The position numbers and the translations under genes were made by a program. From contig NZ_JADQTN010000001.1 in the NCBI RefSeq assembly GCF_017812015.1, forward strand, positions 660,501-724,500: a DNA stretch of 64,000 nucleotides, in the 5' to 3' direction. This document shows, piece after piece, positions 41,943 through 43,635 of this stretch. Numbering within the stretch: the first letter of the stretch is position 1; each line of letters begins with the position of its first letter. The notes beneath the pieces are model-generated. The model was not told the origin of the DNA and did no database searches. It saw only the letters and a program-made list of their open reading frames with translations. The stretch comes from Pontixanthobacter sp. CEM42. GTDB lineage: Bacteria; Pseudomonadota; Alphaproteobacteria; Sphingomonadales; Sphingomonadaceae.

Positions 41943-42914
41943 ATGCGTAAGCTAGGCTGCGCCTTAGTCGCGATTGTGGCGCTGCTAGGCCTTGCTGCGG
42001 GTGGGTGGTTTACCGCCGGGTGGTATGGCTCTTCAGAAGTTAGCGAAGATACGCAGTTCGTTGTCTCTTCCGGCTCTAGCCTAACATCGGTCGCGCGCCA
42101 GCTAGAAGCTGATGGCCACATCGCCTCAGCCGACGCATTCTTGCTCAGAGCCAAGATATTGGGCGGCGGGGACCCGGTGCAGGCGGGCGAGTTTATGCTG
42201 TCTGCCGGGGTCAGCCCCGCACGCATTCTTGAGACATTTCAGAAGGGCGATGTGATCCGCCGTTTCGTTACCATTCCAGAAGGAATGCCATCGATCATGG
42301 TGCATGAAAGATTGATGGCTGAACCACTGCTGACGGGAGAAATTCCCGTTCCAGAAGAAGGCTCTATTCTGCCTGATACATATGATTTCGAGCGTGGTGA
42401 GGAGCGCACCAAAGTGCTTGCGCGGATGCAGGTTGCAATGCGCAATTTCCTCGCTGAAGCTTGGCCGAAACGGCAGCAAGACATTGCCGTTAGTTCTCCC
42501 GAAGAAGCAGTGACGTTAGCTGCGATTGTCGAGAAAGAAACCGGTATTTCATCGGAAAGACAACAGGTTGCAGGGCTTTATTCAAATAGAGTCAAGGAAG
42601 GTATGCTACTTCAGGCAGACCCGACGATTATCTATCCGATAACTAAAGGAAAACCACTTGGTCGGCGTATTAGGCAATCTGAAATACGTGCTTTAAATGA
42701 TTATAATACATACACAATGACTGGTTTGCCTAAGGGGCCGATCACCAATCCGGGAAAAGCCTCGATTGAGGCTGTACTAAACCCTGCCAAAACAACGTCG
42801 CTCTACATGGTCGCGGATGGTACCGGCGGGCATGTATTTTCGGATACTCTGGCAGAACACAATGCCAATGTTGAACGTTGGCGCGCGGTGCAGCGCGAAC
42901 GCGGCGAGAGGTGA
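41943..42914 (+). CDS. mltG: endolytic murein transglycosylase MltG
   Basis: Inner-membrane enzyme that cuts nascent glycan strands and so sets chain length. One N-terminal helix (about 5-25), LysM-like segment, then the YceG catalytic domain with the catalytic Glu in AAIVEKETG and QADPTIIYPI. 323 residues. Starts 2 bases after fabF, matching the acpP-fabF-mltG order of other proteobacteria. A patch at about 42535-42735 uses clearly more AT-rich codons than the rest. Confidence 0.94.
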   Translation: MRKLGCALVAIVALLGLAAGGWFTAGWYGSSEVSEDTQFVVSSGSSLTSVARQLEADGHIASADAFLLRAKILGGGDPVQAGEFMLSAGVSPARILETFQKGDVIRRFVTIPEGMPSIMVHERLMAEPLLTGEIPVPEEGSILPDTYDFERGEERTKVLARMQVAMRNFLAEAWPKRQQDIAVSSPEEAVTLAAIVEKETGISSERQQVAGLYSNRVKEGMLLQADPTIIYPITKGKPLGRRIRQSEIRALNDYNTYTMTGLPKGPITNPGKASIEAVLNPAKTTSLYMVADGTGGHVFSDTLAEHNANVERWRAVQRERGER

Positions 42915-42920
42915 TCCTCA

Positions 42921-43433
42921 ATCGCTAGCGCAGCGTTCATAATCACTGCGGAACTGCCGCCTGATCTGGCGAAATGGGCGACTGCGCTTCGCACCGAGCA
43001 TTTCCCGCCAGAGCGTAATTATCTTTCGGCGCATGTCACCCTGTTCCACGCATTGCCCCCATCATGCGCAAGCGAGGTAAAGACCGCACTTGCGACAGAA
43101 GCGGCTGAAAATGCGCCTGTTTACGGTCAGCTTGAAGGCGTGATGCCGCTGGGCCGCGGAACCGCGCTGAAGCTCGTGAGTCCGGCGATGATCGATATCT
43201 GGCGCAATTTGGCCGACCGGTTCCACGGTCTGCTCATCCCGCAAGACGGGCATAAACCCCGTCTTCACGTGACTGTTCAGAATAAAGTCCATCCCAAGGA
43301 GGCAAAGGCGCTGCAGGTGGAGTTGGCGCCGGTTATCGATCCGCGGGCGTTTCATTTCACCGGATTGTCGCTCCATATCTACCGCGATGGCCCATGGGAA
43401 TTCGTTCGAACCTATCCGTTTCGCGGGCGCTGA
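42921..43433 (+). CDS. 2'-5' RNA ligase family protein (start codon non-canonical)
   Basis: 2H phosphoesterase-type protein. Both HxT motifs are present, HVTLFH and LHVTVQNKV, about 80 residues apart. The frame is open from immediately after the mltG stop (same frame), yet contains no ATG, GTG or TTG before TTG 43053, which lies after the first HxT motif. I place the start at ATC 42921, preceded by GAGAGGTGA at good spacing, because the product (ASAAFIITAELPPDLAKW) then fits the usual family N-terminus. A start at ATA 42939 or CTG 42954 is also possible. About 170 residues. Substrate unknown. Confidence 0.75.
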   Translation: MASAAFIITAELPPDLAKWATALRTEHFPPERNYLSAHVTLFHALPPSCASEVKTALATEAAENAPVYGQLEGVMPLGRGTALKLVSPAMIDIWRNLADRFHGLLIPQDGHKPRLHVTVQNKVHPKEAKALQVELAPVIDPRAFHFTGLSLHIYRDGPWEFVRTYPFRGR

Positions 43434-43558: not shown

Positions 43559-43635
43559 GGCGGAGTAGCTCAGCTGGTTAGAGCAGCGGAATCATAATCC
43601 GCGTGTCGGGGGTTCGAGTCCCTCCTCCGCTACCA
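43559..43635 (+). tRNA. tRNA-Met (CAT), elongator type
   Basis: Complete 77-base cloverleaf: acceptor GGCGGAG with CTCCGCT (one G-U), AGCTCAGCTGGTTAGAGC D-arm, anticodon CAT in AATCATAAT, T-arm GGGGGTTCGAGTCCCT and encoded CCA. The G1-U72 end and lack of initiator features favour elongator Met over initiator; an Ile2 tRNA with modified CAT is a less likely alternative. Confidence 0.93.

Follow-up and report, generated by a model that had tools for sequence, protein, structure and literature searches.

Bacterial genes with starts other than ATG, GTG, and TTG are already known, including infC, pcnB, sigR, and ccpN. Expression of pcnB in Escherichia coli is reportedly limited by an inefficient AUU start. 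The infC gene starts with ATC in Streptomyces and with ATT in E. coli (PMC5472188), and in Xanthomonas, an ATT start of this gene was inferred from peptides (PMC5559785). Streptomyces sigR has a conserved GTC start that is repressed by IF3 and an extensive ribosome-binding site (PMC5472188), and in Staphylococcus aureus, the conserved starts of ccpN (AUA) and cvfC1 (AUU) combine extended Shine-Dalgarno pairing with reduced expression (PMC13009471). Weak third-base pairs and non-canonical starts are discriminated against by IF3 (PMC10158994, PMC5472188), which, at higher levels, also reduces re-initiation in E. coli (PMC2268962). The accessible part of the open-licence literature yielded only two ATC starts for prokaryote genes, those of Streptomyces infC and of the ribosomal protein L12ae gene of the archaeon Staphylothermus marinus, which has no valid start and for which ATC was proposed from an alignment (PMC2678158); an ATG-to-ATC change is also on record for a gene of Neisseria, but solely in a copy described as disrupted and unclear in function (PMC10210955). 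Because ATG, GTG, and TTG are the starts that gene callers assume, proteins of such kind would be shortened or overlooked; misannotation of both sigR and infC has been reported (PMC5472188).

The ligT-like gene behind mltG

A gene of this kind appears to be present in the 64,000-nucleotide stretch of the Pontixanthobacter sp. CEM42 genome analyzed here (the window), where a frame encoding a 2'-5' RNA ligase-like protein follows mltG (Table 1). The mltG stop is TGA at 42912-42914, and the sequence from 42915 to 43433 is open, free of stops, and in phase directly downstream of it. Inspection of the sequence and of the open frames of the window detected no ATG, GTG, or TTG in this frame ahead of TTG 43053, and the family sequence FIITAELPP...HVTLFH is located upstream of this TTG. 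Both observations, the direct in-frame succession of the two genes and the conserved sequence preceding the first canonical start, had been made in an earlier sequence-only reading and held up here; that reading offered three options, namely, a rare ATC or ATA start, read-through from mltG yielding a fusion, and a sequence error. Directly downstream of the ligT-like gene, at 43559-43635, there is a tRNA-Met (cat); the Sphingopyxis contig L085 has a tRNA-Met sequence, identical as judged by eye, in the same place downstream of its ligT-like gene.

Table 1. Features of the mltG and ligT-like genes, in window coordinates
Feature	Position	Strand	Evidence
mltG (endolytic transglycosylase, YceG family), upstream gene	41943..42914	+	PF02618, 252.9 bits; TIGR00247, 207.1 bits
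Putative Shine-Dalgarno core GAGAGG, within the 3' end of mltG	42906..42911	+	9 bases 5' of ATC 42921
2'-5' RNA ligase-like (LigT/2H phosphoesterase) gene	42921..43433	+	170 codons and stop; PF13563
Proposed ATC start codon	42921..42923	+	ATC in 5/5 genus members without ATG/GTG/TTG, codon -5 from the conserved strand
First HxT motif (H38-V-T40), 5' of TTG 43053	43032..43040	+	H38 and T40 invariant in 33 sequences
TTG, first in-frame canonical start	43053..43055	+	Rejected start; 17 of 38 invariant columns precede it
Second HxT motif (H116-V-T118)	43266..43274	+	H116 and T118 invariant in 33 sequences

The whole frame matched the PF13563 profile with 60.2 bits, above the family cut-off of 27, and PF02834 (LigT_PEase) with 21.9 bits, under the cut-off of 23.3; searches with the protein produced no match among NCBIfam profiles at E<=0.001 and none in PDB by sequence at E<=1. 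The AlphaFold2 model, built from the window protein together with 32 relatives, has a mean pLDDT of 94, and its top PDB matches in Foldseek were YjcG, cyclic phosphodiesterases, and LigT, for example, Bacillus subtilis YjcG (2d4g, TM 0.79) and E. coli LigT (5ldm_A, TM 0.62). The 2H phosphoesterases are defined by two HxT motifs. In the window protein, these motifs are represented by H38/T40 and H116/T118, which are invariant among the 33 sequences. The protein shares both the motifs and the fold with LigT and YjcG; its identity to YjcG 2d4g_A, the best structural match, is 16%, and that to E. coli LigT 5ldm_A is 15%. We consider it probable that the gene encodes a functional 2H phosphoesterase of the LigT-like kind, which would be produced as a protein in its own right from ATC 42921.

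A conserved ATC in sister species

The ligT-like gene is present in all eight genus genomes examined. In five of these (the window genome, G001, G002, G005, and G007), the interval from the upstream in-frame stop to the conserved strand is devoid of ATG, GTG, and TTG, and in all five, ATC is found exactly five codons before the F of the F-I-I/V-T-A motif (codon -5). Counted from this ATC, the frames are intact and 169-170 codons long. The remaining three genomes (G003, G004, and G006) have an in-frame GTG overlapping the mltG TGA; G004 has, besides its GTG start, ATT at codon -5 (the start region of Pontixanthobacter luteolus, L010, is the same as that of G004, and the two were merged in the locus count). 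No conservation is seen in the codons that separate ATC from the last in-frame stop (TCC TCA, TCA GCC, TCG CGC, GGC CGG ACT, and GAA ACC CTT), and codon -5 encodes Ile in only 3 of the 142 other loci where it is internal to the gene. Four columns are Ile in all five ATC species, and a single codon is kept only in the -5 column. By itself, codon identity would be weak evidence for a selected ATC start; among the 104 columns with identical amino acids, 18 show one codon across all five species. ATC may instead be an ancestral internal Ile codon, comparable to the ATT under the GTG start of G004. Nevertheless, among the three options for the start, ATC 42921, with the same codon in the same place in five species, is the best supported and most likely one. 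The ATA option of the sequence-only reading did not withstand the comparison: ATA 42939 is not conserved (ATA, ATC, ATA, ATC, and ATT in the five species) and lies 27 bases past GAGAGG. Likewise rejected as a mechanism was the start-stop ATGTGA that is present in G001, G002, and G007; the window has AGGTGA there.

The complete absence of a usual start could also signify that the start has been lost, that the gene is a young pseudogene, or that the window sequence contains an error, but given that the frames counted from ATC are intact (169-170 codons) and pN/pS is low across the five species, we regard this group of explanations as highly improbable. A sequence error, the third option of the earlier reading, appears very unlikely: a usual start is missing from five separate genomes, so that the same fault would have had to recur in each.

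The least probable of the explanations considered is a start at TTG 43053, yielding a truncated protein of 126 residues. Each of the five ATC species has a TTG at this codon, and with 32.8 bits, the truncated protein remains above the PF13563 cut-off of 27, but this TTG is residue 45, and a start there would deprive the protein of the first HxT motif, of 17 of the 38 invariant columns, and of almost the entire first two strands in the fold prediction (residues 5-11 and 39-45 of the model), which are located inside the segment between ATC and TTG. Moreover, pN/pS is lower in this segment than in the rest of the gene: the pooled values, taken at near-saturated synonymous sites (pooled pS about 0.7), are 0.165 between ATC and TTG (0.219 over the first 20 codons) and 0.255 downstream of TTG. 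By this measure, the segment is under purifying selection. In G002 and G007, internal TTG or ATG codons occur earlier in the gene.

In the window, the putative Shine-Dalgarno core GAGAGG precedes ATC 42921 by nine bases, and GAGGTGATCC (42908-42917) could extend the pairing with the presumed 3' end of 16S rRNA. The anti-Shine-Dalgarno sequence was assumed because the 16S 3' end was not found in the genome; a pattern search and Rfam RF00177 produced no 16S rRNA match in the window's genome. With this sequence, the pairing energies are -7.1 kcal/mol in the window, -3.6 in both G001 and G002, -5.6 in G007, and -5.5 in G005, compared to the mean of -4.8 for the GTG starts of relatives (n = 92) and -2.8 for internal controls (n = 2250). 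The window value corresponds to the 5th percentile of the internal controls, whereas those of G001 and G002 fall within the controls (25th percentile, -4.0). The last mltG codon is AGG in the window and ATG in G001 and G002, which fits the stronger pairing in the window. Altogether, we consider the Shine-Dalgarno evidence to be fair in the case of the window and weak in that of G001 and G002. Four of the ATC species have this codon 6 or 9 bases past the mltG stop, and G005 has it at 29 bases; efficiency of re-initiation coupling falls steeply with distance, and 29 bases appears to be too far for efficient coupling (PMC10666635). The distances in the four species fit coupling to mltG, whereas that in G005 does not.

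Starts across the wider family

Matches to the ligT-like protein were detected in 333 of the 397 family genomes, and the junctions were inspected in 110 of them (30 loci and the 80 next best matches, the eight genus genomes included) as well as in 80 contigs. After merging loci with an identical junction and 300 bases of the gene, 170 distinct loci were obtained, counting the window; in 32 of these, mltG was not adjacent or not found, and these were kept outside the count of 138 mltG-adjacent loci. The scan for usual starts (in-frame ATG, GTG, or TTG) began 60 bases upstream of the mltG stop and ran up to the conserved strand. In-frame overlap of the start with the mltG stop (GTGA, TTGA, or CTGA) is found in 99 of the 138 loci, with GTG in 87, TTG in 3, and CTG in 9; another 34 loci have a usual start in some other arrangement (in one of these, L069, the sole usual start is an ATG inside mltG). 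This leaves 5 loci with neither a CTGA overlap nor a usual start, which are exactly the five ATC species, including the window.

These junctions bear on the possibility that the mltG TGA is read through, producing an MltG-LigT fusion that needs no separate start. Four of the five ATC species (the window, G001, G002, and G007) have this TGA in phase with ligT. However, in G005 (L008), the mltG stop is a TAA in another frame, and an in-frame TGA separates this TAA from the ATC, which is still retained. Read-through can thus be excluded as the common mechanism because mltG of G005 ends in a different frame, so that a fusion in all members is precluded. Furthermore, neither the base that follows the stop (T, T, T, G) nor the codons beyond it are constant, and 133 of the 138 mltG-adjacent loci have a usual start or the CTGA overlap. 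MltG is a membrane protein with a periplasmic domain, and the fusion would place an RNA enzyme on the wrong side of the membrane. As an explanation for the window gene, the read-through suggested in the sequence-only reading is therefore very doubtful.

Slightly less improbable, but still quite unlikely, is translation that begins at GTG 42911, overlapping the mltG stop, and enters the ligT frame via a +1 frameshift. A GTG overlaps the stop in four of the five ATC species, the in-frame version of such an overlap is the arrangement in 87 of the 138 loci, and no stop interrupts the GTG frame for 20 codons in G001 and for at least 50 in G002. Yet, the window has a stop in this frame after 5 codons and G007 after 6, G005 has GTA in this position, and inspection by eye did not reveal a common slippery stretch.

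Apart from the identity of the codon, the preferred ATC start is embedded in what seems to be an ordinary locus geometry, with ATC standing where other loci have ATG. Six loci (L028, L057, L162, L172, L175, and L190) have ATG at codon -5, with a 24- or 27-base distance to the mltG stop, matching four of the ATC species. The ATC option of the sequence-only reading is strengthened by this correspondence, although ATG in the place of codon 42921 in relatives, which that reading would have counted against it, does occur, but only outside the genus: within it, five members have ATC, and the other three have GTG further upstream.

Some other members of the family also appear to tolerate weak starts. 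The CTGA overlap is present in L100, L124, L136, L140, L150, L154, L158, L160, and L185, many of them from one genus (g47). Six of these nine loci have no ATG, GTG, or TTG within 15 codons, and four of the six carry a canonical codon within mltG, at a distance of 20-25 codons upstream; in L136 and L160, CTG is the likely start because the open frame contains no ATG, GTG, or TTG ahead of the domain. The ligT-like gene is probably a coupled gene that is tolerant of weak starts, mostly an overlapping GTG and, in a few cases, apparently CTG. In the Sphingopyxis group, for which 30 of the 38 matches were taken as loci in the comparison, 7 of 33 distinct loci lack an upstream in-frame ATG, GTG, or TTG. 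Codon -17 in this group is ATA in 8 loci, ATT in 1, and TTG in 2 (L205, L206, L211, L219, L222, L225, L226, L230, and L231 are the loci recorded for this codon), which looks like a second AUH start in ligT-like genes, although some of the loci have GTG at -2. In L085 and in L214, the latter among the 7 loci, the start region is a poly-C run (Sphingopyxis metagenome contig), probably, an assembly fault.

A candidate route to the ATC start and its known counterparts

By comparison of these genomes, the ligT-like gene has a conserved, intact frame with no usual start, ATC at one fixed place, and no common read-through. We infer that the initiator tRNA would read ATC 42921 as formyl-methionine, with a third-base mismatch, at a site held by the Shine-Dalgarno sequence in the end of mltG and probably also by ribosomes that complete mltG six bases upstream; low, IF3-limited expression would be the likely outcome. 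The simplest history would involve an ancestral GTGA start with an Ile codon (ATT or ATC) at -5 and the loss of GTG from the frame in two lineages: a small length change would have displaced the overlapping GTG from the frame, with its role passing to the ATC five codons ahead of the first strand. In the tree of mltG and ligT, the window genome, G001, G002, and G005 group together (96/90), and G007 groups with G004 (97/90), placing ATC on two branches, with at least two changes; the outgroup is not cleanly separated in this tree, the five ATC species are related, and rejection of a single ATC clade is marginal (p-AU 0.038). The tree of the ligT protein only is mostly unresolved.

A likely precedent for non-canonical initiation in the same genus is infC, as judged from family knowledge and conservation. 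In all seven genus genomes that yielded a full copy (only a fragment was recovered from the eighth, G006), ATA is found at the expected start, with no canonical in-frame start upstream and an in-frame ATG seven codons downstream; the context is GGAGA...CCCC-ATA-GC(C/T)-CGT (loci L197-L203; in the window genome, G000:C1:1903410-1903901). The window gene resembles infC in having an AUH start without a canonical alternative upstream; however, infC regulates itself through IF3, whereas the window gene is a relative of 2H phosphoesterases located behind mltG and is not known to be subject to such feedback. A broader and rather unlikely conjecture is that the ligT-like gene is kept weakly started throughout the family, as part of an IF3-controlled set, with the mltG-overlapping GTG in the majority, CTG mainly in one genus, ATC, and ATA or ATT at a single Sphingopyxis site as its variants. 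If so, cells would couple the amount of an RNA-end-processing enzyme with both IF3 and the translation of mltG.

Compared to the other systems, the window gene shares a conserved non-canonical start with sigR, but the latter is GTC with demonstrated repression; the ccpN and cvfC1 starts were identified by ribosome profiling and tested with reporters, whereas the ATC start is proposed from sequence comparison. Different from the window gene in both the gene and the codon (AUU) is pcnB. The argument for S. marinus L12ae is of the same type as ours but pertains to one genome of an archaeon, in contrast to the five species and the series of related starts here. Unusual in the present case are the occurrence of ATC outside infC among bacterial genes and a clear evolutionary series. 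This sister series, from the overlapping GTG through GTG with an internal ATT to ATC alone, with ATG elsewhere, amounts to a natural test of how a start codon moves and weakens without loss of the gene.
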